64,000 bases of DNA from Albidovulum litorale. Lineage in GTDB: Bacteria > Pseudomonadota > Alphaproteobacteria > Rhodobacterales > Rhodobacteraceae. The stretch is from the NCBI RefSeq assembly GCF_025751495.1, contig NZ_JAOWKZ010000001.1, positions 751,920 through 815,919 on the forward strand, read 5' to 3'. Of the stretch, positions 31,837 to 51,080 are shown one piece after another. Every line of letters starts with the position of its first letter. The first letter of the stretch is position 1. Position numbers and translations under genes: made by a program. A model generated the notes under the pieces. That model was not told the DNA's origin. It saw only the letters and a program-made list of their open reading frames with translations, and made no database searches.

Positions 31837-33021
31837 ATGACGCAGACCACACCCCTGCCGACCCCCAGACTGGGCGAGCCCTATCTCTTGACCCCCGGCC
31901 CGCTGACCACGGCCTATTCCACCAAGGAAGCGATGCTGAAGGACTGGGGTTCGTGGGATGCCGATTTCCGCGCCATGACGAAGTCGCTTTGCAATCAGCT
32001 TGTTGCGCTTGCAGGTGACACGAAGGGAGAGTTCGTCTGCGTGCCGATGCAGGGCTCCGGTTCTTTCTCGGTCGAGGCGATGCTGGGCACCTTCATTCCC
32101 TGGGACGGCAAGGTTCTGGTGCTGGCGAACGGCGCCTACGGGCTCCGCGCCGCAGAGACAATGAAATACTTGGGCCGGGGCTACACCCTGATCGACAAGG
32201 GCGACTACATGCCGCCCCGGGGCGACGAAGTTGCGGCCGCGCTCGATGCCGATCCCGACATCACCCATGTGATCGTGATCCATTGCGAAACGTCGTCGGG
32301 TATCCTGAACCCGGTCGCCGAAATCTCGGAAGCCGTTTACGCCAAGGGCCGCAAGCTTCTGATCGACTCGATGTCCGCCTTCGGCGCCCTGCCCCTCGAC
32401 GTGAACGAGATCCGGTACGAGGCGATGGTATCCTCTGCCAACAAATGCATTGAGGGTGTGCCGGGCTTCGGCTTCGTCATCGCGCGGCGCTCTGAACTGG
32501 AGAATGCAAAGGGCAACAGCCACTCGCTTGCGCTCGATATCCACGCGCAATGGGCCTATCTCGAAAAGACCGGCCAGTGGCGCTACACGCCGCCCACCCA
32601 TGTCGTCGCGGCCTTTCTGGAAGCTTTGCGCCTCCATGCCGAGGAAGGCGGCGTCGCGGGCCGTGGCGCACGGTATACCCGCAACCGCGACGTGATGGTC
32701 GAGGGGATGCGGGAACTGGGCTTTGAGACGCTGCTGAAGGATCGCTGGCTCAGCCCGATCATCGTGACCTTCTTCTGCCCGGCCGATCCGAACTTCGTCT
32801 TCAACGACTTCTACGAAAAGATGAAACAGAAGGGCTTCATCATCTATCCCGGCAAGCTGACCGTTGTGGACAGCTTCCGTGTCGGCTGCATCGGCCGGAT
32901 GGACGAACATGTGATGCGGAACGTGGTTCAGGCCGCCAAAGAGGCTTTGGCCGAGATGGGCGTCACCTCTGCTGCCCCGCCCGCAGCCGCGATTGCCGAA
33001 CGCGCCAAACTCGCCGCCTGA
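31837..33021 (+). CDS. phnW: PhnW, 2-aminoethylphosphonate-pyruvate transaminase
   Basis: PLP enzyme that moves the amino group of 2-aminoethylphosphonate (AEP) to pyruvate, giving phosphonoacetaldehyde and alanine. 394 residues. [56 protein letters not shown] and the PLP lysine in [19 protein letters not shown] all match PhnW. GGAG seven bases before the ATG at 31837 favours this start over an ATG at 31792. The C-terminal Ala-rich tail is about 20 residues longer than I would expect. Confidence 0.93.
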
Positions 33022-33056: not shown

Positions 33057-34307
33057 ATGAATATGCAAAACCGCGCGCCCGTGATGGCTAATGACCGCGC
33101 CTATCCCTGGCCGAAAGTGCCCGCCGTAGCGATCTGCCTAGACGGCTGTGAGCCGGAATATCTGGAGGTCGCCATCGCCGACGGGCTTATGCCGACACTG
33201 AAGCGGATGCGCGAGACGGGCACCGACCGGCTGGCGCATTCGGTCATCCCCTCCTTCACCAACCCCAACAACCTCTCGATCGCCACGGGGCGGCCTCCTG
33301 CGGTGCATGGCATCTGCGGCAATTACCTCTATGACCCCGAGACGGGCGAGGAGGTGATGATGAACGACGTGCGCTTCCTGCGCGCGCCGACAATCTTTTC
33401 ACAATTCTACGAGGCCGGCGCCCGGGTGGCGATGGTCACCGCCAAGGACAAGCTGCGCGCGCTTCTGGGCGCGGGGCTGAAGTTCGACGAGGACCGCGCG
33501 GTCGCCTTCTCGTCGGAGAAGTCCGGCACCACGACCAAGGCCGAACACGGGATCGATAATGCGAGCGCATGGCTTGGGATGCCGGTGCCTGAGGTCTATT
33601 CGGCCGACCTTTCCGAGTTCGTCTTCGCCGCCGGGGTCAAGCTTCTCAAGGAATTCAAACCCGACGTGATGTATCTCTCGACGACGGACTACATCCAGCA
33701 CAAATACGCCCCCGACCAGAAGGGCGCGAAGGACTTCTACGAAATGTTCGACCGCTATCTGGCGGAGCTCGACGCGCTCGGCGCCGCCGTCGTCGTCACC
33801 GCCGACCATGGCATGAAGCCCAAGCACAACGCGGACGGGACGCCCGCCGTGATCTATGTGCAGGACCTGATGGACGAATGGCTGGGCGAGGACGCCGCCC
33901 GCGTGATCCTGCCGATCACCGACCCTTATGTCGTCCACCACGGGGCGCTCGGGTCCTTCGCGACCTGCTATCTGCCCGCCGGGACCGACCGCGCCGGTAT
34001 CATGGCGAAACTCGATGCGCGCGACGAGATCATCCTTGTCGTCACCCGCGAAGAGGCGGTGAAACGCTTCGAACTGCCCGCCGACCGGATCGGCGATATC
34101 GTCATGATCTCGGGCGAGAACATGACCATCGGCACCTCGGCCCACCGCCACGACCTTGCCGCGCTGAAAGAGCCGCTACGTTCCCACGGCGGCTTGACCG
34201 AGCAGGAAGTGCCCTTCATCGTCAACCGCAAGGTGGACCTGCCGAACGCGCCGGAACTCAGGAACTTCGACGCGTTCCTATACGCCTGCACCGCAGCGGC
34301 GCTCTGA
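33057..34307 (+). CDS. phnA: PhnA, phosphonoacetate hydrolase
   Basis: Zinc hydrolase of the alkaline phosphatase superfamily, 416 residues, that splits the C-P bond of phosphonoacetate to acetate and phosphate. Metal ligands and nucleophile: Asp in [11 protein letters not shown], Thr in [13 protein letters not shown], Asp and His in [12 protein letters not shown], Asp-His in [11 protein letters not shown], and His in [10 protein letters not shown]. This is the catabolic PhnA, not the unrelated YjdM/PhnA zinc-ribbon protein. GGAAGGACCTAAG precedes the ATG. 35 bp after phnW, same operon. Confidence 0.94.
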
Positions 34308-34324
34308 CCATGAAGGACCAGCAC

Positions 34325-35773
34325 ATGACGACTATCGACATCCGCCACGAAGGCATGCGGATCGGCGGCGAGACGGTCTTTACCGACAAGGTGATCGAGG
34401 TCCGTTATCCCTATACTGACGAGGTCGTGGGGACGGTCCCGGCAGGCACCGCCGAACATGCCCGCAAGGCGTTCGAGATCGCGGCGAACTACCGATCGAA
34501 GCTGACGCGCTACGAGCGCAGCCAGATCCTGAAGCGCACAGGCGAAATCATCGGCGAGCGGCGCGACTATCTGGCCAAATGGCTCGTTCTGGAACTGGGC
34601 ATCTGCTATCAGCACGCGGTCTACGAGACGAAGCGCGCGCAGGACGTCTATACCTTCGCCGCCGCGCAGGCTTTGCAGGATGACGGGCAGATCTTCTCCT
34701 GCGACCTCACGCATAACGGCAAAGACCGCAAGATCTATACCAAGCGCGAGCCGGTCCGGGCGATCAGCGCGATCACGCCCTTCAACCATCCCCTGAACAT
34801 GGTCAGCCACAAGATCGCCCCGTCGATCGCCACCAACAACTGCATGGTGTGCAAGCCGACCGAACTGACGCCGCTCACGGCACTGACCCTCGCCGATATC
34901 CTCTATGAAGCCGGATTGCCGCCTGAAATGTTCCAGGTAGTGACCGGCTGGCCGCAGGATATCGGCGAGGAGATGATCACCAACCCCAATATCGACATCA
35001 TCACCTTCACCGGCGGGGTGCCGGTCGGCAAGATGATCGCCGCAAAAGGCGTCTATAAGCGTCAGGCGCTGGAACTGGGTGGCAACGATCCCCTGATCGT
35101 GCTCAATGACCTCAACGATGCCGATCTGGACAAGGCTGCGACGATTGCGGTGGCGGGCGCGACCGGCAATAGCGGCCAGCGCTGCACGGCGGTAAAGCGC
35201 ATCCTCGTGCAGGAGTCGGTCGCCGACCGCTTCGTGCCGCTGGTTCTGGAGAAAGCCAAGAAGATCAAGTTCGGCGATCCGATGGACCCCGCGACCGAGC
35301 TTGGCTGCGTGATCCATTCCAAGGCCGCCGAGCTTTTCGAAAAGCGCGTCTATATGGCGGCCGATCAGGGCGCCAAGGTGCTCTACGATCCCGGTCGCAA
35401 GGGTGCGCTGCTGCCACCGATCGTCGTCGATCACGTGCCCCATGACAGCGAGCTTGTCATGGAGGAAACCTTCGGCCCCGTCATCCCGATCGTCCGCGTC
35501 CCGGACAATGACGAAGAGGTCATGCGGATTTCGAACGGCACCGAGTTCGGCCTCTCCTCCGGCGTCTGCACCAACGATTTCCGCCGCATGCAGGCCTATA
35601 TCGAGGGGCTGAATGTCGGCACGGTGAATATCTGGGAACAGCCCGGCTACCGGATCGAAACCTCGCCCTTCGGTGGGATCAAGGATTCCGGTAACGGCGT
35701 GAAGGAAGGTGTGACCGAGGCAATGAAGTTCTTCACCAATGTGAAGACTTATTCGCTTCCCTGGCCACGCTGA
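34325..35773 (+). CDS. phnY: PhnY, phosphonoacetaldehyde dehydrogenase
   Basis: NAD-dependent aldehyde dehydrogenase, 482 residues, that oxidises phosphonoacetaldehyde to phosphonoacetate for PhnA. ALDH motifs: [18 protein letters not shown] (Asn), [12 protein letters not shown] (Glu), [13 protein letters not shown] (catalytic Cys) and [10 protein letters not shown]. Assignment to PhnY among the ALDHs rests on the context between phnA and pbfA. The ATG at 34325 follows GAAGGACC; an ATG at 34310, three bases after the phnA stop, is the alternative. Confidence 0.92.
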
Positions 35774-35833: not shown

Positions 35834-37180
35834 GTGATCACCCACACCGAAGGCGAGTCCAATACATCGGAAGCGCGCCGCAACTGGGCGGCGCGCCATC
35901 CCGATGCGGCGACGCGCGACCTGCTGGCGCGCGACGCGGACGCATTCCTGCACCAGTCGCTGTCCTCGCCCTGCGTTTCCACCATCGTCAAGGCGGACGG
36001 CATCTGGATCGAGGACACCGCCGGGCGGCGCTACATGGATTTCCATGGCAATTCCGTCCATCACATCGGCTATGGCCATCCGCGCGTCGTGGCCGCGATT
36101 AAGGACCAGCTTGATCGCTTAAGCTTCTCGCCCCGCCGCTTCACCAACGAGATCTCGGTGGAACTGGCCGAAGCGCTCGGGACGCTGGCGCCGGGCGATC
36201 TGGGCAAGGTTCTTTTTACGACCGGTGGCTCGGACGCGAATGAGGTCGCGCTTCGCATCGCGCGGGCGGCGACCGGACGGTTCAAGACAGTGAGCTTCTG
36301 GGACGCCTTCCACGGCGCGGGCTTCGGAGCGTCGAGCGTCGGCGGCGAGGCGACGTTCCGGTCCCACATCGCCGGGCCCCTGCTGCCGGGCGCCGAACAT
36401 GTCGCCCCCTTCAACTGCTACCGCTGCGCCTATGGCCATGCCGGGCCGGAATATTGCGGACTCGCCTGCGCGAAGATGGTGGAGTTCGTGCTGGAGCGCG
36501 AGGGCGATGTCGCCGCAGTCATCGCCGAACCGATGCGGGCGGTGCCCGTTGTGCCGCCGCCGGGCTTCTGGAAAGCGGTGCGCGCGGCCTGCAACCGGCA
36601 CGGCGCGCTTCTGATCATGGATGAGATCCCGACGGGCCTTGGCAAGACCGGAAGAATGTTCGCCTTCGAACATGACGAGGTGATCCCAGACATCGTGACT
36701 TTGGGAAAGGCGCTCGGCGGTGGCATCCTGCCCATCGCGGCGGTGATCGCGCGGCGCGATCTGGATGTCTGCGGCGATTTCGCCATCGGCCACTACACCC
36801 ATGAAAAGAACCCGGTGACGGCCCGGGCGGCGCTGGAAACCCTTGGCGTAGTTCACGACGAGGGGCTGGTGGACCGCGCGGCGGAGCTTGGCGCCCATGC
36901 GCTCAACCGGCTGCAGGAAATGGTCGGCGACCATCCACTCGTCGGCGATATCCGGGGCCGCGGCCTGATGTTCGGGGTCGAGATCGTCGAGCACTGCGAG
37001 ACCCGCGCACCGGGACGCGCGGCGGCGGAACGCATCTACTACCGCTGCCTTGAGGCGGGTCTCAGCTTCAAGATCAGCGCGGGATGTGTCCTCACACTTT
37101 CCCCGCCCCTGACCATCGCGAAAGACGACCTGGACCGAGCACTCGACATCGTGGCCGAGGCCATCCGCGCCGAGATCTGA
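35834..37180 (+). CDS. pbfA: PbfA, (R)-1-hydroxy-2-aminoethylphosphonate ammonia-lyase
   Basis: PLP enzyme with the class III transaminase fold, 448 residues. In phn clusters this enzyme is known to convert (R)-1-hydroxy-AEP to phosphonoacetaldehyde and ammonia, widening the substrate range of the AEP route. It shows YMDFHGNSVHHIGYGHPRVV, FTTGGSDANEVALRIAR, LLIMDEIPTGLGKTGRMF and the PLP lysine in VTLGKALGGGILP. A plain AEP-type transaminase would be redundant with phnW, so PbfA is the best reading. GTG start at 35834 after AGTGAGGC. It ends five bases from the convergent ABC operon. Confidence 0.85.
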   Translation: MITHTEGESNTSEARRNWAARHPDAATRDLLARDADAFLHQSLSSPCVSTIVKADGIWIEDTAGRRYMDFHGNSVHHIGYGHPRVVAAIKDQLDRLSFSPRRFTNEISVELAEALGTLAPGDLGKVLFTTGGSDANEVALRIARAATGRFKTVSFWDAFHGAGFGASSVGGEATFRSHIAGPLLPGAEHVAPFNCYRCAYGHAGPEYCGLACAKMVEFVLEREGDVAAVIAEPMRAVPVVPPPGFWKAVRAACNRHGALLIMDEIPTGLGKTGRMFAFEHDEVIPDIVTLGKALGGGILPIAAVIARRDLDVCGDFAIGHYTHEKNPVTARAALETLGVVHDEGLVDRAAELGAHALNRLQEMVGDHPLVGDIRGRGLMFGVEIVEHCETRAPGRAAAERIYYRCLEAGLSFKISAGCVLTLSPPLTIAKDDLDRALDIVAEAIRAEI

Positions 37181-37185: not shown

Positions 37186-38187
37186 CTAGGCTGCCAGAGT
37201 ATCGGCCAGTTCGCGCCAACGGTGGCAGGCGACCTCATGCCCGTCACCGGGATGTTCCAGCTTCGGCTCATCCTTCTTGCAGATGTCGATGGCGAAGGGG
37301 CAGCGGGTGTGGAACTTGCAGCCCGAGGGCTGGTTTGTGGGCGACGGGATTTCGCCTTCCAGCTTCTGCGCGCGGCCCCGGTCATCGGGGTCGAGCGACG
37401 GGATCGCCGAGAACAGGGCCTTGGTATAGGGGTGGCGCGGCGCCTTGAAGACCTCGCGCGTCGGCGCGCTTTCCACCAGTCGCCCCAGATACATAACCGC
37501 GAGATGATCGCAGGTATGGGCGACGACCGACAGGTCATGGCTGATGAAGAGGAAGGTGATCTTCAGATCGCGTTGCAGCTCTTTCAGGAGGTTCAGAACA
37601 TCGGCCTGAATGGAGACGTCGAGCGCCGCCACGCTCTCATCGGCCACGACGAATTTCGGCCCCGAAACGAGCGCCCTTGCGATGGAAATCCGCTGGCGCT
37701 GACCGCCCGAGAAGGCATGCGGGAAGCGCCGCAGGTGTTCGAGGTTCAGCCGGCATTTCGCCGCGATCTGACGGACCCTTGCATCGGTTTCCTCGCGGGT
37801 CTTGGTCAGCCCCATCACCTCCAGGGGTTCGGCGATGATGTCGCGCACGGTCATGCGGGGGCTAAGCGCCGCATAGGGATCCTGGAAGATGAGCTGCGCG
37901 CGCTTGCGGTAGTCTTTCAGTTCCGGCCCCGCGAGCGTCGTCAGGTCGTAATCGACCTCGCCATCGGTATAGTGCGCCGACCCGCCGGTGATCGGCACCG
38001 CCTTCAGAAGCGCCCGACCGAGCGTCGTCTTGCCCGATCCGCTTTCGCCGACAAGACCGAAGAACGACCCCTTCTCGATGTCGATATCGACATGGTCCAC
38101 CGCCTTCAGGATCGACTTTCCGAAGAAGCCGGAACCGATCTTGAAACCGACCGACAGGTCGCGGGCCTTGATCAGGGTCTCGCTCAT
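37186..38187 (-). CDS. ABC importer ATPase, OppF/DppF type
   Basis: 333 residues, last gene of a five-gene importer operon. Walker A GESGSGKTTLGRALL, signature FSGGQRQRISIARAL, Walker B FVVADESVAALD, H-loop FISHDLSVV. The C-terminal oligopeptide-transporter domain has the Cys pattern CKFHTRCPFAIDICKK and a later Cys. Overlaps its partner ATPase gene by four bases. Annotation databases would call it a peptide or dipeptide transporter; the neighbouring phosphonate genes suggest another cargo. Confidence 0.93.
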   Translation of the reverse strand: MSETLIKARDLSVGFKIGSGFFGKSILKAVDHVDIDIEKGSFFGLVGESGSGKTTLGRALLKAVPITGGSAHYTDGEVDYDLTTLAGPELKDYRKRAQLIFQDPYAALSPRMTVRDIIAEPLEVMGLTKTREETDARVRQIAAKCRLNLEHLRRFPHAFSGGQRQRISIARALVSGPKFVVADESVAALDVSIQADVLNLLKELQRDLKITFLFISHDLSVVAHTCDHLAVMYLGRLVESAPTREVFKAPRHPYTKALFSAIPSLDPDDRGRAQKLEGEIPSPTNQPSGCKFHTRCPFAIDICKKDEPKLEHPGDGHEVACHRWRELADTLAA

Positions 38188-39179
38188 GCCGGGACCTCCG
38201 TATGCAGATGGCAGGCGACCCGGTGCGTGGGATCGACCTGCGTGTCATGGGGCAGTTTCGACTTGCAGACATCGCCGATGATCTTCGGGCACCGCGTATG
38301 GAAGACGCAGCCCGAAGGGCGCTCCAGTGGCGACGGGATGTCGCCCGCAACAGGGGTCAGCGGCGCATCGAGATCGTCGAGTTTCGGCAGGGCCGCCAGC
38401 AGGCCTTGCGTATAGGGATGTTTCGGGTTGCGGATGACCTCACGCACCGGACCTTCCTCGACGATCCGACCGAGATATTTCACCGCGACCTTGTCGGCGG
38501 TCTGGGCGATGACGCCGAGGTCATGGGTGATGAAGATGATCCCCATGTGAAACTCGCGCACGAGGTCCTTCATCAGGTCGATGACCTGCGCCTGAATGGT
38601 CACGTCGAGTGCCGTCGTCGGCTCATCGGCGATCAGAAGCTTCGGCTTGGTCGAGATCGCCATCGCGATCATCGCCCGCTGGCGCATCCCGCCGGAAAGC
38701 TCGAACGCATACTGGCTGAACCGCCTTGCCGGGTCAGAAATGCCGACCCGGTCCAGCATCTCGACCGACAGGTCCCGGGCCTGCGCCTTTGACATGTTGG
38801 AATGCAGCATCAGCTGTTCGACCATCTGGTCGCCGATGGTGATGGCGGGGGCAAAGCTCGCCATCGGTTCCTGAAAGATCATGGAGATCGCGCCGCCCCG
38901 CACGATCTTCAGATCGCGCGCGGATTTCAGCTTCAGGACCTCAACCGGGCCATTCGCCGTGTGCAGGATGATCTGGCTTTTCGGCCCGTAGACCGCGTTC
39001 TTCGCATTCAGATGCATCAGCGCCTTCGCGGTCACCGACTTGCCCGAGCCGCTTTCGCCGACAAGGCCCATCACCTGCCCCTTGTCGATCGAAAAGCTCA
39101 CATCATCGACCGCCGTTACCAGACCCTCATCGGTCCGGAACTGGATGGTCAGGTTCTTGACTTCGATGAGTGCCGTCAT
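38184..39179 (-). CDS. ABC importer ATPase, OppD/DppD type
   Basis: 331 residues. Walker A GESGSGKSVTAKALM, signature ELSGGMRQRAMIAMAI, Walker B LLIADEPTTALDVTIQ, H-loop FITHDLGVI, and the Opp C-terminal domain with GCVFHTRCPKIIGDVC. It pairs with the preceding OppF-like ATPase. Four-base overlaps on both sides show strict translational coupling. Confidence 0.93.
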   Translation of the reverse strand: MTALIEVKNLTIQFRTDEGLVTAVDDVSFSIDKGQVMGLVGESGSGKSVTAKALMHLNAKNAVYGPKSQIILHTANGPVEVLKLKSARDLKIVRGGAISMIFQEPMASFAPAITIGDQMVEQLMLHSNMSKAQARDLSVEMLDRVGISDPARRFSQYAFELSGGMRQRAMIAMAISTKPKLLIADEPTTALDVTIQAQVIDLMKDLVREFHMGIIFITHDLGVIAQTADKVAVKYLGRIVEEGPVREVIRNPKHPYTQGLLAALPKLDDLDAPLTPVAGDIPSPLERPSGCVFHTRCPKIIGDVCKSKLPHDTQVDPTHRVACHLHTEVPA

Positions 39180-40327
39180 TTCTTCGTATCCGAATAGGGG
39201 TCAGCCGCGTCGCGCAATCCGTCGCCGACGAAGACGAAGGCCAGAACCAGCGCCACGAAGAAGATGACGGGGATGAAATACCACTGGTAATTCAGAAGCA
39301 CGTCCGCCTTCGAGACGTTCTGCATCAGCGCGCCGAGCGAGTTGACCGGGTCCTTGAGCCCGAGGCCGATGAAGCTGAGCGCGGTTTCCGACCGGACCAT
39401 GTAGGGGAAGGAAATCATCAGGTCGACGATGATGTAGCTGGTGAACGAGGGCAGCAGGTGGCGGCGGATGATATGGCCCGCCGAGGCGCCCGACAATTCG
39501 GCTGCCAGCACATATTCCTGCGTCCGCTCGGTCAAGAGGTGCGTTCGTATTCGTCGCGCCAATGTTGGCCAGCCAATGAGGCCGAGGATGATCGAGATGA
39601 AGAAGAACCGCGTCTCGGACGACCAGTGATCGGGCATGAAGGCGGCAAGCGCCATGAACAGCGGGATCGACGGCACGGTTCGGATCGCGTCGGTGATCAT
39701 TTGCAGGACCGAGTCGATCCAGCCGCCGAAATAGCCGGCCACCCCTCCTATGATCAGTGCCAGCACGAAGGAGATGAAGACACCCAATGTACCGACCGCG
39801 AGCGACGTCCATATCGCGTGCAGCGTTCGCCCGAAGATATCCTTGCCGCTGGCATCGGTACCGAAGAGGTGGATCATGCCGCCTTCATCCAGTCCGAAAA
39901 GATGAATGTTGCCGGGAATGACGCCGAGGATCTTGTAGTCCCACCCCTTCACGAAGAACCGCATATAGAGCCGGTGCTCGCGGTTTTCGGTCACGACCCA
40001 GCGGAAGTTCGTCTTGATCGAACGCTCGCGTTCCGTTGCATAAACGAAGGGGCGGAGCGAGAACCCGTTCTCGTCCCAGAATTTCGGGAATTGTGGCGCG
40101 CCGTTTTCATAGTTCTCGTCGCGGCCCGCGATGGTCGGATCATAGGGCGACAGGAAGGGCGCGAAGATGCCCATCATGATCATCAGGACCAGTGCCCAGG
40201 CGGCAATCATCGCCGTCCGGTTGCCCTTGAACCGCGCCCAGATCAGCTGCCCCTGCGAGGCGGTGAAATAAGCTTCCTTGGCCTTCTGATCGACCCCGGC
40301 GGTGGCTGTCTTGCGTCTGAACAACAT
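39176..40327 (-). CDS. ABC importer permease, OppC/DppC type
   Basis: 383 residues, longer than the usual ~300 because about 95 residues of hydrophilic sequence sit between the first membrane helix (AMIAAWALVLMIMMGIFAPF) and FGTDASGKDIFGRTLHAIWTSLAVG (in parts). That puts a large loop in the periplasm near the binding protein. The EAA loop contacting the ATPases is ELSGASAGHIIRRHLLP. Five further membrane helices follow. 12 bp separate it from the next permease gene. Confidence 0.92.
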   Translation of the reverse strand: MLFRRKTATAGVDQKAKEAYFTASQGQLIWARFKGNRTAMIAAWALVLMIMMGIFAPFLSPYDPTIAGRDENYENGAPQFPKFWDENGFSLRPFVYATERERSIKTNFRWVVTENREHRLYMRFFVKGWDYKILGVIPGNIHLFGLDEGGMIHLFGTDASGKDIFGRTLHAIWTSLAVGTLGVFISFVLALIIGGVAGYFGGWIDSVLQMITDAIRTVPSIPLFMALAAFMPDHWSSETRFFFISIILGLIGWPTLARRIRTHLLTERTQEYVLAAELSGASAGHIIRRHLLPSFTSYIIVDLMISFPYMVRSETALSFIGLGLKDPVNSLGALMQNVSKADVLLNYQWYFIPVIFFVALVLAFVFVGDGLRDAADPYSDTKK

Positions 40328-40339
40328 GGCCGCCTCCCC

Positions 40340-41350
40340 TTACGATCCGATGATGCCGCGCCGGACGCGCGGGTCGATGAGGGCCAGAAGAATATCGGTG
40401 ACGAAATTCAGGGCCACGATGCTGGCGGTCAGAAGGAAGATGATCGCCCCCGCCAACTGCTGGTCGTTTGACCGGGCGAGACTCTCGAAGAGAAGCGCCC
40501 CGGCCTCGGTCAGCGTCAGGATCAGCGCGACGATGGGCAATTCGTTGAAGATACGGTTGAGGTCGAAGCCGAGCGAGTTAATGACCGGCCCCAGTGAATG
40601 CTTGGCAGGATAGCGCCAGAGGAGTTTCGACCCCGACACGCCCCTCGCCGAGGCGGCGGTGACGTAAAGCTTGCCGATCTCGTCCAGCATCAGCGCCCGC
40701 ACCGTTTGCAGGGCGAAGGCGGTGGCGGACCATCCGAGGATGAAGACCGGCAGCCAGGCGCGGCTGATGAAGTCGCCGAACTTCGCCCAGCTCCACGCCG
40801 CATCCCTGTATTCCTTAGAGAACAGGCCCGTCAGACTGTCGCCGAACAGAACCGTCGAAATCAGCATGATGATGAGCGCCAGAAGGAAGTTCGGCAGCGC
40901 CAGGCCGAGATAGGAGACGAAGCGCAGGGAGTTGTTGGCAACCGCGCTCGTCGAACTGGCGGTCACGATGCCTATTGGCACCGCGATCGCGTATGAGAGG
41001 ATCAGCGCGGCCATACAGATGCCAAGGGAAATCCAGAACTTGTCCGCCAGAAGCTGGTTGATGTTCAGCCGCAGGATGCAGCTGTCGCCGAATTCGCCAT
41101 GGACGAAGACGTTGTAGACCCAGTTCCCCCACCTGACCGGGAAGGGTTTGTCGAGGCCCAGACGTTTCTCCTCTGCCTCAATATCGGCGATGGTGATCTG
41201 CGAGCCTTGGGTGTTCTTGAATGCAAGGTAGCGTTCCGCACAGGTGCCGGGCACCAGCTCCATCAGCGTGAAGACGATGAGCGAGACGGTCAGAAGCGTG
41301 ATCAGCGCAAGAATGGCGCGGGTCAGCGCGAACTGGGCGAATTGGGCCAT
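40340..41350 (-). CDS. ABC importer permease, OppB/DppB type
   Basis: 336 residues, six membrane helices. The first is ALITLLTVSLIVFTLMELVPG; the EAA loop is AASARGVSGSKLLWRYPAK followed by HSLGPVINSLG. Forms the transmembrane channel with the OppC-type permease. It lies behind the binding-protein gene with an 83-bp gap that holds a strong stem-loop. Confidence 0.92.
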   Translation of the reverse strand: MAQFAQFALTRAILALITLLTVSLIVFTLMELVPGTCAERYLAFKNTQGSQITIADIEAEEKRLGLDKPFPVRWGNWVYNVFVHGEFGDSCILRLNINQLLADKFWISLGICMAALILSYAIAVPIGIVTASSTSAVANNSLRFVSYLGLALPNFLLALIIMLISTVLFGDSLTGLFSKEYRDAAWSWAKFGDFISRAWLPVFILGWSATAFALQTVRALMLDEIGKLYVTAASARGVSGSKLLWRYPAKHSLGPVINSLGFDLNRIFNELPIVALILTLTEAGALLFESLARSNDQQLAGAIIFLLTASIVALNFVTDILLALIDPRVRRGIIGS

Positions 41351-41384
41351 GGCGGGTGGTCCTGTGTGAAAGCGGGCCTTCGAA

Positions 41385-41408
41385 CCGGGGCGGCCTGAGC
41401 CGCCCCGG
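41385..41408 (-). terminator. Stem-loop between binding-protein and permease genes
   Basis: 10-bp perfect stem CCGGGGCGGC/GCCGCCCCGG, loop CTGA, without a T-run. Such structures commonly protect or partly terminate the upstream mRNA, so that the binding protein is made in excess over the membrane components. Confidence 0.7.
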
Positions 41409-41433
41409 CCGATTTCGACATCAGGTCACGACA

Positions 41434-43473
41434 TCACTCGTCGAAGTACCACTGTTGTGCGCGGTAAGGATACGTCCGGTAGTATTCGTAGGACGCGGTC
41501 TTGAACTCGGTGAAGTTCTTAAGCGCATTGCGGTGATAGATCGGGTCCGGCGTCAGCGCAGTGCCGATGAACAGCAGGTTTCCGGTCATGTTCTCGACCA
41601 TGCGGTTGGCGATGGCCTTGAACTCGTCCGTGCCCGCCGGCGTCGATTGCAACGCGTTGATGTCGTCGACAAGCTGCTTGACGTAATCGGGCGGCTCAAC
41701 CCCGCTCGCACCGCCGGAATCGACCCATTCGGCCCAGAGCATCCCGGTGCGGTGAGCAAAGTAGTTCTCGAACGGCGGCACCCAAAGTTCGTTGTTGCCA
41801 AGGATGATACCCGTCGGCTGACCCTTTTCCCAAAGACCGACATCGAGCTGGTTCGAGGATTGCGCCGAGCGGTACTCGTCCGGCGTAATTTCCTTCACCG
41901 TGGTGTTGATGCCGACATTGGACCAGTGCTGGCCAATCAGTTCGACGACCTGCCCGGCGATACCCTGAGTCGCGAACTGCAGGTTCAGCACCAGCGGATC
42001 GCCGTTTGGCAGGTCGCGGAAGCCGTCACCATTGGCGTCGACCACGCCGACCTCATCCAGCAGCGCCTTGGCGCCGTCGGGATCGAACTCGGCCGCGAAG
42101 GCCTTCCACTTCTCGTCGATGTAGTCCGGCAGCGGCGAGAAGCCGGTATACTGCTGGATAACGCCCTCACCGAAGTAAGCCGTCTGGTTCAGTTCCTCGC
42201 GGTTGATCGCGATCGACATCGCCTTGCGGAACCGGAAATCGCCGAAGACCTTGCGCTTTTCCTCGTCCGCCGAGGTGACGTTGAACGACACCGCATGCAT
42301 AGCGATTTTCGGCTTCAGCTGGATCGTATACCCGCCCTTCTCCTGGTTCTCCAGCAGCAGCGGTGCATCGGCCAGTTGCAGCGACTGGGTCTTGTAGTCC
42401 GCTTCGCCGTTCACAAGCTTCAGCAGCCGTACTTCCTGGTCGTTGGCATAGATCTCGTCCTGCTCATTGATGTAGGGCAGCTGCTGACCCGTCGTATCGA
42501 CCATATGGAAATAGGGGTTCGCCACGAAGTGCCGGCCCTCGGTCGTATCCCGGATCAGGATGTGGCTTTCCAGCGTCGGCATCGTATCGGCCGGCATGTT
42601 TGCAACCTTGTCCGGCGCGTTCAACTGCGGCGTCGGCGTGTCGGTCCAGTCCGAGTTGCCGTAATAGGCCTTGATGACCTCATAGCCATTGGCAAAGCCC
42701 AGATCGGCGGCCAGCTTGTCGGCATCCGGGTTCACATCCGGGTGGAACTGGCCAAGGAAGTGCTTGGGCTGGAAGCCCTGACCGAAATGGGTCGCGAAGT
42801 GGGCCAGAAGACCCGGCTTCGGCGCCGGAAGATTGAAGACCACGGTCTGCTCATCCGGCGTATCGACCGTCATCCGCTCACCGGCGACCAGCACATAGTC
42901 CTTCGGCTTTTCGATGACGTTTGAGTCAAGCGCGAGGTTATCGTACCAGAACTTAACGTCTGCCGACGTAAACGGCGCGCCGTCCGACCATTTGTGGCCC
43001 TTACGCAGGTGGAAGGTCAGCTGCGTGTAATCCGCGTTCCATTCCCACGACTTGGCGATGTTCGGCACGATGGTTTCAAGATCGTCCGAATAGCGCACGA
43101 GGTTGACATGGCGGGTCGAGAGGAAGTCGGACGTACCGGCCTCGGTCGCGTTCGACAGCGCGTCGAGCGTGCCGCCGTATTTGCCCACCGAGTCATAGGG
43201 CACCACGACAAGCGGTTCCTCCGGCAGACGATCCGCGAGCGCCGGCAGCTCCGGATTTCCGCGGATCATGCCGTTCAGATCGGCAATTGCCGGGTTTTCC
43301 GAGAACTCCATCGTGCAACCGGCGGCTGTCTGGAATTCCGCCAAGTCGTATTGTTGGGGGAAGGCGCCGGGTGCGATCCCGCCCATATCGGCAACTGTGA
43401 TGCCGGGGCAGTTCGCATAGGCCGCCATGGGCAATGCAAGCAGCGCAACGCTACCGAATAACAGTCTTTTCAT
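41434..43473 (-). CDS. Periplasmic solute-binding protein, family 5 (Opp/Dpp type)
   Basis: 679 residues with signal peptide MKRLLFGSVALLALPMAAYA; the usual length of the family is 500-600, so this one is large. The family core is visible in SWEWNADYTQLTFHLRKG, KWSDGAPFTSADVKFWYDN and FRKAMSIAINREELN. First gene of the importer operon; GGGAG lies before the ATG at 43473. The 285 bp upstream to 43758 hold no gene I can support. Cargo unknown; see findings for the phosphonate-ester hypothesis. Confidence 0.92.
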   Translation of the reverse strand: MKRLLFGSVALLALPMAAYANCPGITVADMGGIAPGAFPQQYDLAEFQTAAGCTMEFSENPAIADLNGMIRGNPELPALADRLPEEPLVVVPYDSVGKYGGTLDALSNATEAGTSDFLSTRHVNLVRYSDDLETIVPNIAKSWEWNADYTQLTFHLRKGHKWSDGAPFTSADVKFWYDNLALDSNVIEKPKDYVLVAGERMTVDTPDEQTVVFNLPAPKPGLLAHFATHFGQGFQPKHFLGQFHPDVNPDADKLAADLGFANGYEVIKAYYGNSDWTDTPTPQLNAPDKVANMPADTMPTLESHILIRDTTEGRHFVANPYFHMVDTTGQQLPYINEQDEIYANDQEVRLLKLVNGEADYKTQSLQLADAPLLLENQEKGGYTIQLKPKIAMHAVSFNVTSADEEKRKVFGDFRFRKAMSIAINREELNQTAYFGEGVIQQYTGFSPLPDYIDEKWKAFAAEFDPDGAKALLDEVGVVDANGDGFRDLPNGDPLVLNLQFATQGIAGQVVELIGQHWSNVGINTTVKEITPDEYRSAQSSNQLDVGLWEKGQPTGIILGNNELWVPPFENYFAHRTGMLWAEWVDSGGASGVEPPDYVKQLVDDINALQSTPAGTDEFKAIANRMVENMTGNLLFIGTALTPDPIYHRNALKNFTEFKTASYEYYRTYPYRAQQWYFDE

Positions 43474-43758
43474 GTTCACTCCCGTTGTTTGGCTTTGTTG
43501 GATTTCGTTGTTTTTGTGAAGTAATCCGGCCAACTGCCCGAACGCTATGAACGGCCGGAATTCAAGTATAGGTCCAGTACCTCCCTTCAGATATGGCCAG
43601 AATCCGACGCGCAGACCAAGCCTTTCGGCCTATGAGAAAACGCGTGATTCCTCCCCTTGGTGCGCCGGCTTCCCGGCGTCGCTGGCCCGAGTATGGGCCT
43701 GCGACCGAAACCCCGTCAAGCATGCCGAATGCCCGTGGAAATGTTTGTACACCCATGG

Positions 43759-45267
43759 TCATCGCGGCACCGTCACGGCTCCTTCCCCCGTCACCATCGT
43801 TCGGGTAAATCGGCTCGCCGCATGGGTCATCCGGTGATCGGCCATGGCGCGGTACATCTCCAACAAAGCGCTCTGCGCGTCCGGATCGCCCGAGATGTCG
43901 CGCATCTCACCGTGCCGGTCATGATCAAAAAGCAGCGATGGCAGGCCGCCATTGAAATGAACGAGGGTATGCCTCCCGCTCCTGAGCACAGCCAGATTCG
44001 TCGTCTCGGGCGTCAGGCCCAGCCGCTTCTGCGGCAGGGTCGGCGCCACCGGATCGCCGAAATCCAGCTCCGAGAATGTGAAGCGGCGCCACTCGCGGGG
44101 CTTTTCCCCCCGAAGCATGGGCATCAGGCTGCGGCCATTCATCGTCTGCGGCACCTCCAGCCCGAACCGGTCGAGAATCGTCGGTGTGACGTCGATGGAT
44201 TCCGTCGGCAGGTCATGTACCGCGCCGAACGATCCCGGCAGGTCCGGATCGCGGATGATCAGCGGCACATGGTAGGCCGCATCGTGATAGGTCGACTTCG
44301 CCCAGATATAGCGGTCGCCCAGCATCTCGCCATGATCGGCGGTCACGATGATCAGGGTCCGGTCATACTGACCGGTCTCTTTCAGGAAGGCGATCAGGCG
44401 TCCGAGATGGTGATCGACCTCGGTCGCAAGCCCCAGATAGATCGCGCGCAACTGCTGGATATTCTCATCCGTTGGGTCAAGATCGGCGAATCCCTCCACC
44501 ATGCCCGCGATTGGGTTCTTGGCATGACACGGGGCGACAAACGGATGCACCGCCTGCTCCTCCGCCATCGTTCCAGCGCGGGCAGGCAAGGGCAATACCG
44601 CAGGATCATACATCCGGTTGTAGGGTTCGGGCGCGACCAGCGGATTATGTGGCCGGATATAGGTCACATGCGCGAACCAGCCCTGCTTTCGGGCGCGCAG
44701 GGCGCGGATCGTCTCATCGGTCAGGAACGCCGTATCGCTGTCCTCGGCCCGGTAAAGTGCCGGGTCGTCGGGGCGGGGACCGGCCGGGCGGAAGATGTCG
44801 GGATAAGGCGGAACGTCATAGCCCTTTTCCATCAGATAAGCCCGCCATGGCAGGCTCTCCTCCAGCCGCATCTCGACGACTTCCTGAAAGCCGGGCAGCA
44901 CTTGCTCATAGCTTTTCAGCACCGGATCATCCGGCGCGTGGACACGCGGGTCGGGCGTCGCGTCGGTGTAGCCGAAGAGCAGCGGCAGCCAGCCCGCCCT
45001 TCGCATTTCCGTTGCAAGGTTCGGCGTATCATGCGGCAAGGGCGTACCGTTCCGGACCGACCGATGGTTCATCGCATATTGCCCGGTCAGCAGCGAGGCG
45101 CGAGAGGGCCCGCAGGGATTGGCGACCGAGTAATGGCGGTGAAACGACGCCGCATCGGCCACCAGCGCCCGCAGATTCGGCAGATCGACATGGCTGGCCA
45201 GCGCGCCATGCAGACAGTCCGCCCGAAGCTGGTCGATCACGACGAAAAGAACGTTATCCCTTGGCAC
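43759..45267 (-). CDS. Phosphonate monoester hydrolase-like enzyme (sulfatase superfamily)
   Basis: 502 residues without signal peptide, so cytoplasmic. Metal site Asp in NVLFVVIDQLRAD; nucleophile Cys in NPCGPSRASLLTGQY, the CxPxR motif in which Cys is turned into formylglycine; TADHGEMLGDR carries further metal ligands. Beyond these, MNHRSVRN, GYTDATPDPR, EVDHHLGRLIAFL and ESIDVTPTILD resemble the Rhizobium/Burkholderia phosphonate monoester hydrolases more than arylsulfatases; these enzymes also cleave phosphodiesters and sulfate esters. GTG start with GGAGGGGC upstream. Divergent from the DeoR gene. Confidence 0.8.
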   Translation of the reverse strand: MPRDNVLFVVIDQLRADCLHGALASHVDLPNLRALVADAASFHRHYSVANPCGPSRASLLTGQYAMNHRSVRNGTPLPHDTPNLATEMRRAGWLPLLFGYTDATPDPRVHAPDDPVLKSYEQVLPGFQEVVEMRLEESLPWRAYLMEKGYDVPPYPDIFRPAGPRPDDPALYRAEDSDTAFLTDETIRALRARKQGWFAHVTYIRPHNPLVAPEPYNRMYDPAVLPLPARAGTMAEEQAVHPFVAPCHAKNPIAGMVEGFADLDPTDENIQQLRAIYLGLATEVDHHLGRLIAFLKETGQYDRTLIIVTADHGEMLGDRYIWAKSTYHDAAYHVPLIIRDPDLPGSFGAVHDLPTESIDVTPTILDRFGLEVPQTMNGRSLMPMLRGEKPREWRRFTFSELDFGDPVAPTLPQKRLGLTPETTNLAVLRSGRHTLVHFNGGLPSLLFDHDRHGEMRDISGDPDAQSALLEMYRAMADHRMTHAASRFTRTMVTGEGAVTVPR

Positions 45268-45339
45268 TACTCAGCCCCTCCTGTGGGCATCGTTATCGAC
45301 CAGAAGTGCAACAATTTTGATTCGGTGCAATGAAATTTC

Positions 45340-45364
45340 GTGGATTTTTGTGGATTTATGTGGG
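45340..45364. promoter_or_regulatory. Three 10-bp direct repeats, candidate DeoR operator
   Basis: GTGGATTTTT, GTGGATTTAT and GTGGGCTAAC start at 45340, 45350 and 45360, exactly one helical turn apart. They lie 25-50 bp before the DeoR start and in the divergent promoter shared with the hydrolase gene. GTGCAA also occurs twice 18 bp apart (45307 and 45325). Confidence 0.55.
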
Positions 45365-45388
45365 CTAACTTCCGTTTAGGGAGGAACC

Positions 45389-46174
45389 ATGACGCGACCG
45401 GACGGTGGAAAGACCAGCCACCGGCAGTTTGAACTGCTGGAAGTCCTGCGCCGGCAGGGCGGATCGGCGCGCAATGCCGACATCGCGCAAGCCATGGATG
45501 TTTCAGAAGAAACGGTGCGCCGACTGGTCAAGACTCTGGCCGATGACGGCAAGGTCGAACGACTTCATGGCGGCACTGTGCTGGCCGGTGTGGAGCCGGG
45601 ATTTTACCAGCGCATCGCGCAGAATCCCGACGGAAAGAAGCGCATCGCTAAAAGTGTCGCGCGCGAGATCACCGACGGCATGTGCATCTTCCTCGATGTC
45701 GGCACCACCACGACCTTCGTCGCCGAGGCGCTGCGCGCACACCACCGGCTTTATGTCGTGACGAACTCCATGCCCGTGGCCCAAACGCTCGCCCATCACA
45801 ATGACAACCGCGTGGTGCTGACCGGTGGCGATGTCGGCCATGACGAACACGGCACCTATGGCCCTCTCGCCGAAGAGGTGCTGCGCCGCCACGCCTTCGA
45901 TGTCGCGATCCTCTCAGCCAACGCGCTGAACGACCGCCATGGCTTTCTCGTCTTCAACCCCGCCGAGGCCGCCATCTCGCGCGTCGCCGTGGAACAGGCC
46001 CACCGTCCTATCGTGACGGCGGACCACGAAAAATTCGGCCGCCGTGCGCCGCAAGTCTCCTGCGACCCCGCCGATATCGACCTGCTGGTGACCGACCGCG
46101 TCCCTCCCGCCCGTCTCTCCGCGGCACTCAAAGGTTGGGGGGTCTCGGTGCGTATTGCGAAGGAGGTGGTTTGA
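45389..46174 (+). CDS. DeoR/GlpR-family transcriptional regulator
   Basis: 261 residues. N-terminal helix-turn-helix (QFELLEVLRRQGG, NADIAQAMDVSEETVRRLVK), then the DeoR sensor domain, which binds sugar or polyol phosphates: DVGTTTTFVAEAL with the phosphate-binding Thr run, VVTNSMPVAQTLA, LTGGDV. Family members are usually repressors released by a phosphorylated sugar. Its position between the hydrolase/importer and the monophosphatase suggests that a sugar or polyol phosphate is formed in this pathway (inference). GGGAGG precedes the ATG. Confidence 0.9.
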   Translation: MTRPDGGKTSHRQFELLEVLRRQGGSARNADIAQAMDVSEETVRRLVKTLADDGKVERLHGGTVLAGVEPGFYQRIAQNPDGKKRIAKSVAREITDGMCIFLDVGTTTTFVAEALRAHHRLYVVTNSMPVAQTLAHHNDNRVVLTGGDVGHDEHGTYGPLAEEVLRRHAFDVAILSANALNDRHGFLVFNPAEAAISRVAVEQAHRPIVTADHEKFGRRAPQVSCDPADIDLLVTDRVPPARLSAALKGWGVSVRIAKEVV

Positions 46175-46175
46175 A

Positions 46176-46946
46176 ATGACTGCGACCATGGCCGATGCCA
46201 TTCAGATCGCCGAGGCGGCCGGCAAAGTGGCGATGCGCCATTTCCGGGGCGCCCTTGGCGTCGATTTCAAGTCAGACGACAGCCCGGTGACGCAAGCCGA
46301 CCGCGCGGTGGAGGCCGAAGTGCGCCGCCTGATCGCCGACCGCTTCCCCGGCCACGGCATCTATGGCGAGGAACAGGGGATCGAACGCGGCGAGGCTGAC
46401 GACCTCTGGATCGTCGATCCGATCGACGGCACCCGCAGTTTCATGACCGGCCATCCTTTGTTCGGTTTCCTGCTGGCCAAGCTGACGCGCGGTACAGCCG
46501 ACCTCGCCATCGTCTCGGCCCCCGCCATGGGCGAGGTCTATGCCGCCGCAAGAGGGCAAGGCGCGATGCTGAACGGGCAGAAGCTGCGCACCTCCGGCCG
46601 CCGGGGGCAGGACAGCGCGGTGCTCTACATCAACGAAGGTGAAAAGATCTGGCGCGCCGCGCCCGGGGTCTTTGCCCGCCTCATGGAATTCGGCCGCACA
46701 AGGCGCTTCGCCTATGACTGCTACCCTTACGCGCTGCTGGCCTCGGGTCATGTCGATGCGGTCGTGGATTTCGACCTGCAACCCTATGACTACCACGCGG
46801 TTGCGCTTCTGGTGGAGGAAGCGGGTGGCGTGATGACCGGCTGGCGGGGCGAAAGGCTTTCCATGCAGACCGGGATCGCAACCGTGGCCGCCGCCACGGC
46901 AGAGCTTCACGCCGAACTGCTGGAGATCACCGCGTCAGGTCTTTGA
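46176..46946 (+). CDS. Inositol monophosphatase-family phosphatase
   Basis: 256 residues. Li-sensitive Mg-dependent phosphatase fold: SPVTQADRAVEAEVR, GEEQG with the metal-binding Glu, IVDPIDGTRSFMTGHPLFGF and the C-terminal DFDLQPYDYHAVALLVEEAGG. IMPase, histidinol phosphatase (HisN) and 3'(2'),5'-bisphosphate nucleotidase share these motifs and cannot be told apart by eye. It starts one base after the DeoR stop, with AAGGAGG inside the DeoR gene, so the two form an operon. The 3' end overlaps ribD by 12 bp, convergent. Confidence 0.87.
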   Translation: MTATMADAIQIAEAAGKVAMRHFRGALGVDFKSDDSPVTQADRAVEAEVRRLIADRFPGHGIYGEEQGIERGEADDLWIVDPIDGTRSFMTGHPLFGFLLAKLTRGTADLAIVSAPAMGEVYAAARGQGAMLNGQKLRTSGRRGQDSAVLYINEGEKIWRAAPGVFARLMEFGRTRRFAYDCYPYALLASGHVDAVVDFDLQPYDYHAVALLVEEAGGVMTGWRGERLSMQTGIATVAAATAELHAELLEITASGL

Positions 46947-48032
46947 CCAGAGGCTGAGCGTATCCGCCCCGACCCGCTCGACCGAATTCAGCCGGAACCG
47001 TTCCGCACCCCCCAGTGCCGTCAGCCCCAGCGGCCCGAGCCCCGGCCGAGCATCGGCGCCCAGCGCCAGTCCCGCGGTGAAAAGCGCGATCTCATCCACG
47101 AGCCCCGCCGCCATCAATGACGCCGCTAACTGCCCGCCGCCCTCACAGAAGACCCGCGTCAGCCCCGCCGCGCCAAGTGCCGCGAGCATCGCGGTGGGGT
47201 CGAGCCCCCCCGCCCCCTCAGCGCAATCGAACAGACGTGCCCCGGCTGCCTGCCACGCATCCCGCCGCGCCTTCGGCGCGTCTGCTCCATGAACCAGCCA
47301 GACCGGCACATCGCGCGCGGTCCGGGCGAGAGTGCTGCCCTCCGGCAGATCGAGGTTGCGCGCGGCAATCACACGGACGGGCTGATGCGCGACACCCATG
47401 TCGCGGACCCTCAGATCAGGGTCATCCGCCCGCGCCGTCCCGCCCCCGACCAGAACAGCGTCATGGGTCGCCCGCATCGCATGAACCCGCCGCCGCGCCT
47501 CGGGCCCGGTGATCCATTTGCTTTCGCCCGACACCGTCGCGATGCGTCCATCCACGCTCATCGCCAGTTTCAGCGTCACTATCGGGCGGCCCTGCCGCAT
47601 ACGTGTCAGGAAGCCGCGCTGCATCGCCTCGGCCTCGGTCGCCATCATCCCGGTCTCAACCGCGATCCCGGCGTCGCGCAGCATCGCATGGCCCTTGCCT
47701 GCAACGCGGGTATCGGGGTCCTCCAGCGACGAAACGACCCGCGCAATACCGGCGGCGATCAATGCGTTCGCGCAGGGCGGGGTCTTGCCGTGATGGGCGC
47801 AGGGCTCAAGGCTCACATAGGCCGTCGCGCCACGGGCCGCTGAACCCGCCTCAGCCAATGCCACCGTCTCGGCATGCGGCCGACCGCCCGGCTGGGTCCA
47901 GCCGCGCCCCACGAGCCGGCCGCCCTTCACGATCACGCAACCGACGGCGGGATTGGGCCAGACCCGGCCCAGCCCACGCCGGGCAAGGCCGAGAGCATGG
48001 GCCATATGACGCCGGTCGTCGGCGGCGCTCAC
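46935..48032 (-). CDS. ribD: RibD, riboflavin deaminase/reductase
   Basis: Bifunctional enzyme of riboflavin synthesis, 365 residues. The N-terminal deaminase has Zn ligands in HAETVAL and [18 protein letters not shown]; the C-terminal reductase has [24 protein letters not shown] (in parts), [15 protein letters not shown] and [16 protein letters not shown] start at 48032 shared with the nrdR stop (GTGA). Other rib genes are not in the window. Confidence 0.95.
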
Positions 48033-48496
48033 TCTTCCGCCGTTGAGGGCGGGCGCAGTTCAGAAACGAACTTGTCGAAATCGTCCGCCGCTTGGAAGTT
48101 CTTGTAAACGCTGGCAAACCGCACATAGGCAACCGTGTCGATCCGCGCCAGCGTCTCCATCACGATCTCGCCGATGGTTTTCGACGGGATGTCCGTCTCG
48201 CCAAGGCTTTCCAGCCGCCGCACGATGCCGGAAATCATCTGGTCGATGCGTTCAGGCTCGATCGGGCGTTTCTGCATCGCGATGCGGATAGAGCGTTCCA
48301 TCTTGTCGCGGTCGAAATCCTCACGCTTGCCCGAGGACTTGATCACCACGAGGTCGCGCAGCTGCACCCGCTCATAGGTCGTAAACCGCCCGCCGCAGGC
48401 CGGGCAGAAGCGTCGCCGCCTGATGGCCACATGATCCTCGGCGGGGCGTGAATCCTTTACCTGAGTATCGACATTTCCGCAAAACGGGCAGCGCAT
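48029..48496 (-). CDS. nrdR: NrdR, ribonucleotide reductase repressor
   Basis: 155 residues. N-terminal zinc ribbon [20 protein letters not shown] with CPxC twice (the second in [15 protein letters not shown]), then an ATP-cone domain. NrdR represses nrd genes according to ATP/dATP. The start at 48496 matches the invariant family start MRCPFC; an in-frame ATG six codons upstream is unlikely. nrdR-ribD is a common pair in Alphaproteobacteria. Confidence 0.96.
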
Positions 48497-48523
48497 TCCC
48501 TTCCCCTCGGCCAAGATCCCCGG

Positions 48524-50141: not shown

Positions 50142-51080
50142 TCATGCAGAGACACCGTCGGCTGCGCCCATGCGGGCAATGCGGCGATAGCCGGCCTCGC
50201 CCCACCAGAAGCCATTGGAAAAACCGGGACCCATTTTCAGTGCATCCAACTGTGACGTAGCCTCGTCGGCTCCGATGCGACCATCGGCAAGATCGCGATA
50301 GATGTGCGCGACCGCCACCATGTCCTGCTTCTGCGGCCCGAGCCTGAGCGCGGTCACACCCATTCCCACCATCTCCGGCACCGCGGCGGCAAGATTCATG
50401 TAGCTCCGCGACATGGTCTGGATGCCGTTCACTGTCAGGAACCCTGGCCCGTCGAGCGTATCGAGCGGCATGCCGTCCGGATCCTCCTCGCAGACGAATT
50501 GGCAGTTGTCCTTGGTCCGGCCATGCGCGCGGGCATGATAGCACCGCGCCGACAGCGCGAGCGAGGCGCGGCCAAAGACCTGCACCTCAAGTCCTGCACC
50601 CAGCACCCTCGCCTTTTCACCGAGAACCGCAACCGCATCGCGCGGCAATTCGGCGGGCAGCGCGAAATGGGTGGCACCGCGCGCAGCAAGAAACGCCATC
50701 GTCTCTTCGTTATAGACGTTCATATAGGGACCGACCCGGTGCGGGCGGCCGGTCAGGTGCAGAAGGGCGGCGGCGTTATTGGCCTCCACCTCGCGCCCGT
50801 CCTCGCCGTCGCACAGCCCCTGGGTCGCCTTGCGTTCGCGCTTCAGCATGATCTCGGCAAGTGACGAGATGACGACACGCTTGCCCGCCCGCTCCAGCCG
50901 TTCGGCGGTCTCATAGAGGTCGGGCTCATGGAAAGGCGCGCGTTTGGAACAGATGACCTCGCCCAGATAGACCGTATCGACCGGTGCCTCGTCGGCGATC
51001 CTTGCATAGAAGTCGCGCCGGGCCTCTGCCGACCAGTGAAAGGGGATCGGGCCGAGTGTCAGGTCCATCTTTACCGCCAT
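50142..51080 (-). CDS. ubiV: UbiV, oxygen-independent ubiquinone hydroxylation protein
   Basis: U32 peptidase-like protein, 312 residues, that with UbiU forms a complex with two [4Fe-4S] clusters hydroxylating the ubiquinone ring without O2. LGPIPFHWSAEARRDFYARI, VYLGEVICSKR and the Cys-rich CYHARAHGRTKDNCQFVC are typical. The start at 51080 follows AGGACTAAGAC and overlaps ubiU by ten bases. A second ATG at 51068 is possible. Confidence 0.92.
   Translation of the reverse strand: MAVKMDLTLGPIPFHWSAEARRDFYARIADEAPVDTVYLGEVICSKRAPFHEPDLYETAERLERAGKRVVISSLAEIMLKRERKATQGLCDGEDGREVEANNAAALLHLTGRPHRVGPYMNVYNEETMAFLAARGATHFALPAELPRDAVAVLGEKARVLGAGLEVQVFGRASLALSARCYHARAHGRTKDNCQFVCEEDPDGMPLDTLDGPGFLTVNGIQTMSRSYMNLAAAVPEMVGMGVTALRLGPQKQDMVAVAHIYRDLADGRIGADEATSQLDALKMGPGFSNGFWWGEAGYRRIARMGAADGVSA

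Follow-up and report, generated by a model that had tools for sequence, protein, structure and literature searches.

We identified a putative scavenging system for esterified 2-aminoethylphosphonate (AEP) in a 64,000-nucleotide stretch of the Albidovulum litorale genome, hereafter the window. It comprises a five-gene Opp-type ABC importer, a phosphonate monoester hydrolase (PMH)-type enzyme, a DeoR-family regulator and an IMPase-family phosphatase, which together meet an AEP-degradation operon. We consider it probable that this cluster is the front end through which esterified AEP is scavenged. In the proposed mechanism, a family-5 solute-binding protein (SBP) would capture, in the periplasm, a small monoester of AEP with glycerol, a sugar or some other alcohol, and OppBCDF would carry it into the cell. 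The PMH-type hydrolase would then split the P-O-C ester into AEP and the alcohol through a formylglycine nucleophile and a metal site, and PhnW, PhnY and PhnA (PhnX in other genomes) with PbfA would degrade AEP or the 1-hydroxy derivative. Control of the hydrolase gene and of deoR-imp probably lies with DeoR, acting on a triple CCACA repeat. For the more specific proposal of a dedicated AEP-monoester pathway, which would take glyceryl-AEP or AEP-glycan fragments from phosphonolipids and phosphonoglycans, be spread over Rhodobacteraceae and related Alphaproteobacteria and give PMH a physiological role ahead of PhnW, we see even chances. The interpretation in an earlier note on this DNA is partly supported, and its core, that the importer and PMH form an AEP front end, has been carried well beyond the single locus.

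The nine-gene set of that note, tail to tail with the AEP operon, was recovered by open reading frame (ORF), domain and NCBIfam searches (Table 1). Two permeases, two oligo_HPY ATPases and an SBP_bac_5 protein stand in one series and make up an Opp/Dpp-type ABC importer; the subunits match Opp/Dpp models, but no equivalog cut-off was reached among the matches listed. A gap of 5 bases separates these minus-strand genes from phnW-phnA-phnY-pbfA on the plus strand, where phnW together with phnA and phnY, all over NCBIfam cut-offs, constitutes an AEP-degradation cluster.

The association of the importer, PMH and PhnW is more than chance. Among 149 genomes of the same family (148 genera), PMH (E <= 1e-60) was present in 34, SBP (E <= 1e-100) in 29 and PhnW (E <= 1e-60) in 35, 34 of these over the curated cut-off. 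In tests that treat genomes as independent, PMH and PhnW occurred together in 25 genomes versus 8.0 expected (p 2.8e-13), SBP and PhnW in 23 versus 6.8 (p 3.6e-13), and SBP and PMH in 25 versus 6.6 (p 5.7e-17). All three were found in 22 genomes; the importer and hydrolase therefore do not occur without phn genes in most genomes, since PhnW is present in 22 of the 25 that have SBP and PMH. As a control, the C-P lyase protein PhnJ (68 of 149 genomes) did not associate positively with either PMH (16, expected 15.5) or SBP (11, expected 13.2), and a general phosphonate lifestyle was on this ground rejected as the cause of the co-occurrence. PhnW or PhnJ was present in 32 of the 34 PMH genomes and 28 of the 29 SBP genomes, compared with 92 of all 149. 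Within the window's genus (22 genomes) presence was strictly nested, with SBP (13) inside PMH (16) inside PhnW (19). At class level, SBP was found in 12 of 385 genomes, too few for statistics.

Moreover, the genes are often linked. PMH and SBP lay within 10 kb of each other in 17 of the 25 genomes having both. At a limit of 20 kb, PhnW lay near PMH in 14 of 25 genomes and near SBP in 11 of 23; all these counts are lower bounds because some contigs are short. Single-strand runs were found in the order SBP-oppBCDF-phnW-phnX-PMH (loci L051, L056 and L057; the PhnX of L056 scores over its cut-off) and phnW-phnX-PMH-SBP-oppBCDF (L059). Plasmid CP049030.1, from Rhodobacteraceae bacterium SC52 of a sea-cucumber intestine, carries an annotated same-strand run of SBP, permeases, ATPases, phnW, phnX and PMH, with SBP and the first permease 168 nt apart, gaps of 19-22 nt at phnW, phnX and PMH, and identities to the window of 49% (SBP), 45% (PMH) and 67% (PhnW). 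The window's own arrangement, in which phnA, phnY or pbfA accompany the importer and PMH, mostly with phnW, recurred in L031, L049, L072, L074, L079, L084, L085 and L097, where the L072 and L074 stretches stop before phnW. The earlier claim that the importer, PMH and AEP-degrading genes are a recurrent set is therefore borne out by co-occurrence, by distance and by the same-strand runs of L051, L056, L057 and CP049030.1.

In other loci (L033, which is the same contig as L088, L034, L039, L104 and L107), PMH and the importer stand with deoR, imp and a Na/Pi-type transporter gene, without phn genes in the stretch covered. However, in L175-L177 deoR and the Na/Pi-type gene accompany phnWAY, with imp and an EamA-type gene in two of the three, and this ties the genes of the phn-less loci to the AEP module. 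An EamA-type membrane protein also adjoins pbfA in L049 (8399-9238) and matches phn_DUF6, an NCBIfam model described as phosphonate utilisation associated, at 134.7 of 288.15 bits; related proteins are encoded next to pbfA in L031 and L046 and also in deoR-imp loci.

Linkage was also counted within about 12 kb of 128 PMH loci, namely the window, 32 loci from the survey of the family, 9 plasmid records, the best 80 of more than 564 relatives in named genomes and 6 distant loci; some are duplicates, and L019 (a 3.2-kb contig) was excluded. Importer and phn genes were both present in 17, the importer only in 32 and phn genes only in 5, at thresholds that overlook the L162 importer and leave the unrelated ABC sets of L067-L069 uncounted. 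On a tree of 83 dereplicated PMHs, linkage was scattered and included distant branches (L059, L158-L161), not one clade. Those last three loci (L067 11995-19207, L068 8992-15981 and L069 8956-15830), from Rhizobium johnstonii (pRL9), Pseudoroseomonas and Roseibium plasmids, have PMH/PehA followed by Opp-like ABC sets with other binding proteins; L068 lists one ATPase only, and the Roseibium locus has an annotated phnF upstream. PMH with an Opp-like importer may be a wider theme.

The hydrolase aligned end to end with the solved PMHs 4UPK (E 2e-192, residues 3-499), 2VQR (9e-93) and 2W8S (3e-88), which indicates full-length homology. 4UPK is the R. pomeroyi PMH (100% over the 159 residues compared), and the PMH of Defluviimonas aestuarii (L072) is 91% identical to that of the window. 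The active-site set consists of a C52-G-P-S-R motif with D12, Q13, D311, H312 and K324, and these five residues together with C52, P54 and R56 were invariant in a PMH alignment (A1). The roles we assign to the formylglycine-type motif, the metal ligands Asp, (Gln), Asp and His and the Gln-contacting Lys partly follow PMC5870055 (papers are cited by PMC number for their accessible parts). D12, Q13, N73, Y100, H207, D311, H312 and K324 are the same in RlPMH (2VQR) and 4UPK; C52 is also found in 4UPK, whereas this position reads A in the 2VQR chain and G in that of 2W8S. At the position of T107 in RlPMH, whose meaning is taken from PMC5488252, the window's PMH has neither Thr nor the His of arylsulfatase SpAS1 (4UPI), and instead has Asp102, which is invariant in A1 and also found in 4UPK and 4UPH. 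Because the PMH 4UPK has Asp as well, Thr107 does not define the whole PMH group. We speculate that the acidic Asp102 could meet an ammonium group. To judge from the end-to-end alignments and the lack of an SpAS1-type His, the enzyme is of PMH type and a close relative of 4UPK, in agreement with the earlier description of it as phosphonate monoester hydrolase-like. No signal peptide was seen by eye (no predictor was run), and the enzyme is probably cytoplasmic; its substrate would therefore need to be imported first. The whole source genome (4.05 Mb) holds three Sulfatase-family matches and one FGE-family match.

The SBP ORF extends to 43533, and its likely start is the Met at 43473, which relatives share and after which comes a signal-peptide-like stretch. 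In searches of PDB sequences, the closest solved relatives were 5IPW, SPH1118 and AgpA, all ranked above the classical dipeptide-binding proteins. 5IPW is labelled an oligopeptide-binding protein by its depositors, SPH1118 binds pectin according to a literature abstract, and AgpA binds alpha-galactosides; these relatives point to sugars without being decisive. Among the known AEP transporters, the survey covered the PhnS2 binding protein (TIGR03261, over cut-off), which was present in 14 of the 149 genomes. PhnS2 was found in 0 of 11 PhnW genomes with an Opp-type importer within 20 kb of PhnW, compared with 13 of the 24 others (p 0.002); by plain SBP presence the figures were 6 of 23 PhnW genomes with SBP and 7 of 12 without (p 0.08). 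The first comparison argues that the Opp-type importer occupies the importer slot of the AEP cluster, a position that fits uptake of AEP esters and also uptake of plain AEP. The importer might therefore carry free AEP or other aminophosphonates while PMH acts on a separate, minor substrate. We regard this alternative as quite unlikely: PhnS2 and SBP occur together in those 6 genomes, which argues for different cargo, PMH is present in 25 of the 29 SBP genomes, and the SBP is of the long kind with oligosaccharide-binding relatives. In genome G013, a PhnS2 match in two adjacent pieces (C1:2708701-2709683), perhaps a broken gene, lies about 4.4 kb from phnW.

A repeat between the pmh and deoR genes, CCACATAAATCCACAAAAATCCAC, is the sole perfect match to CCACAN5CCACAN5CCAC in the genome; the same scan found one further site with one mismatch, and a backward-read control pattern had one match. 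Shortly upstream of pmh, perfect matches were found in L034, L072 (a near relative of the window), L104 and L107, one-mismatch matches in L033/L088, L074 and L120, and two-mismatch matches in L031, L039, L045, L079, L084, L085, L118 and L143. At two mismatches the chance rate is 0.28 per 64 kb, which amounts to about 13 over the scanned 2.9 Mb. Many such matches, as well as the one-mismatch match of L162, are indeed located away from pmh. Weight is therefore given mainly to the matches that are perfect or have one mismatch, and to where they stand. In L031 and L079, deoR lies beyond the phn genes, yet the repeat remains at pmh. DeoR may bind this repeat. No second site was found in the window at up to two mismatches, and the single match therefore gives no support for DeoR control of the importer and the phn operon; promoter-like and terminator-like sites were about as frequent as in shuffled sequence.

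DeoR fell short of the GlpR cut-offs (NF041397, 175.9 of 300 bits; NF008154, 135 of 331), and the IMPase, whose ORF starts with TTG and has a Met at 46176, fell short of the HisN cut-off (TIGR02067, 233.5 of 275.15 bits). The earlier note had the polyol part of the ester pass through the phosphatase and its phosphate form sensed by DeoR. Such a step gains from the company of deoR and the Na/Pi-type gene with phnWAY in L175-L177 (imp in two of the three), but another role, for example in phosphate balance, fits as well.

Weak pointers suggest that the alcohol part would be glycerol or another polyol. On an Aureimonas sp. AU20 plasmid (L070 8965-19407), PMH has DeoR/GlpR, glpD and a sugar-type ABC set as neighbours. 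Glycerol-3-phosphate-oxidase-like genes and a small-molecule kinase surround SBP-OppBCDF-PMH loci of a distant clade (L157 and L160, the latter also with an FGGY kinase and a class II aldolase). A GDPD-family gene (L156 3254-4441) and a related importer (SBP 46%) are convergent, with no PMH match in the 20 kb covered; among the selected ORFs scanned in importer loci away from PMH (L152, L153, L155, L156 and L163-L177), this GDPD gene alone seemed relevant.

The GDPD pointer, however, fits another explanation too, in which the main substrate is a phosphodiester such as glycerophosphoethanolamine or another glycerophosphodiester. PMH would yield a phosphomonoester, the IMPase would remove its phosphate, the Na/Pi-type transporter would handle the excess, and the phn genes would serve a chemically similar diet. 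The glycerol-related genes of L157, L160 and the Aureimonas plasmid suit this explanation, phosphodiesters are one of the two primary activities of RlPMH (PMC5488252), and the IMPase and a Na/Pi-cotransporter-like gene (model match below cut-off) accompany PMH and deoR in several loci. We nevertheless hold it to be unlikely. It leaves unexplained why PMH and SBP track PhnW and form same-strand runs with phnW-phnX, and deoR, imp and nptA lie directly with phnWAY-pbfA in L175, as do deoR-nptA in L176.

Several observations weigh against a scavenging system for AEP esters. The co-occurrence tests carry no phylogenetic correction. Three genomes have the importer and PMH without PhnW (G038, G069 and G073; PhnJ is present in G038 and G073, not in G069), and both PMH and SBP are missing from 9 of the 35 PhnW genomes. 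At 74 of the 128 PMH loci the neighbourhood contained no such importer and no phn genes. Nearly all the Ruegeria and Leisingera loci and those of two further plasmids are of this kind, as is the 4UPK locus of R. pomeroyi, where the gene sits among unrelated genes. The named nearest solved relatives of the SBP bind oligosaccharides. Additionally, the hydrolase missed the PehA equivalog cut-off (NF045661, 427.9 of 900 bits), and its Asp/Gln/Asp/His/Lys set is not diagnostic of PMH, because choline sulfatase SmCS is reported to have 9 of its 11 active-site residues in common with RlPMH (PMC5870055). These unlinked loci, the Sulfatase Pfam domain and the Opp/Dpp matches are what would be expected if an ordinary importer of peptides or sugars lay, together with a sulfatase, beside phn genes by accident. 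We consider such an accident very improbable in view of the co-occurrence, the linkage, the nested presence in the genus, the close kinship to 4UPK and the lack of a sulfatase-type His at the T107 position. A pure sulfatase is likewise disfavoured by that missing His, although SmCS shares most of the active-site residues.

The scavenging system we propose has parts that are each of a known kind; their combination was not found in the literature searched. The AEP clusters of PMC8316502 and PMC8154272, phnWX or phnWAY (with or without pbfA) with PhnSTUV, AepXVW, AepP or AepSTU, share PhnW, PhnA, PhnY and PbfA with the window. In contrast, the window adds a five-gene Opp-type importer with a family-5 SBP and a PMH, whereas the uptake systems described in the accessible parts of those papers take up free AEP. 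For Sulfitobacter HI0054, Sosa et al. (2017, PMC5649143) postulated alkaline phosphatase-like cleavage of phosphonate esters of marine polysaccharides, with a PMH (PEH) gene in isolates; there, however, the next step is C-P lyase acting on methyl- or hydroxyethylphosphonate, and the portion available links no importer or AEP operon to it. We found no paper on PMH with an Opp-type importer and phnW in open-licence texts, figures excluded, and such a system was absent from the accessible parts of PMC10574752, PMC8154272, PMC12366243, PMC10590968, PMC9381506 and PMC8316502. AEP is conjugated to glycans, lipids and proteins in marine organisms (PMC9381506). A linked importer and ester hydrolase would therefore fill a gap in the phosphorus cycle between conjugated AEP and free-AEP uptake and, if confirmed, explain how some bacteria gain access to phosphonates tied up in lipids and sugars. 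It would also give the promiscuous PMH enzymes a biological substrate. To our knowledge, the natural substrate of these enzymes is unsettled.

Table 1. Features of the AEP-ester cluster and the adjoining AEP operon (positions in the window)
Feature	Positions	Strand	Basis
LysR-type regulator, divergent from phnW	30831-31730	-	
PhnW, AEP-pyruvate transaminase	31792-33021	+	over NCBIfam cut-off
PhnA, phosphonoacetate hydrolase	33057-34307	+	TIGR02335 over cut-off
PhnY, phosphonoacetaldehyde dehydrogenase	~34340-35773	+	TIGR03250 over cut-off, residues 155-629 of ORF 33878-35773
PbfA	35834-37180	+	NF049939 over cut-off
OppF/DppF-type ATPase	37186-38187	-	ABC_tran + oligo_HPY; under NCBIfam equivalog cut-offs
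OppD/DppD-type ATPase	38184-39179	-	domain and NCBIfam searches
OppC-type permease	39176-40327	-	BPD_transp_1 + OppC_N
OppB-type permease	40340-41350	-	BPD_transp_1 + BPD_transp_1_N
Family-5 solute-binding protein (SBP), 679 aa	41434-43473	-	SBP_bac_5
PMH-type hydrolase (alkaline phosphatase superfamily), 502 aa	43759-45267	-	Sulfatase Pfam domain, motif CGPSR
Candidate operator, triple direct repeat CCACAN5CCACAN5CCAC	45340-45363	-	between PMH and deoR
DeoR-family regulator	45389-46174	+	HTH_DeoR + DeoRC; under equivalog cut-offs
IMPase-family phosphatase, HisN-like	46155-46946	+	Inositol_P

A lysR-like gene adjoins phnW also in L031, L043, L049, L079, L084, L085 and L097. On the other side of the cluster, RibD (46935-48032, minus strand) shares 12 bases with the 3' end of the IMPase gene and is adjoined on the same strand by NrdR (RibD-NrdR region 46935-48514). 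Farther along, genes for UbiV, UbiU and UbiT, of anaerobic ubiquinone synthesis, stand in series at 50142-52581 (minus strand), all over NCBIfam cut-offs. They are followed by a YghX-family hydrolase gene (52716-53603, plus strand; 562.5 bits versus a cut-off of 460), opposite which lies a minus-strand ORF with no NCBIfam match.

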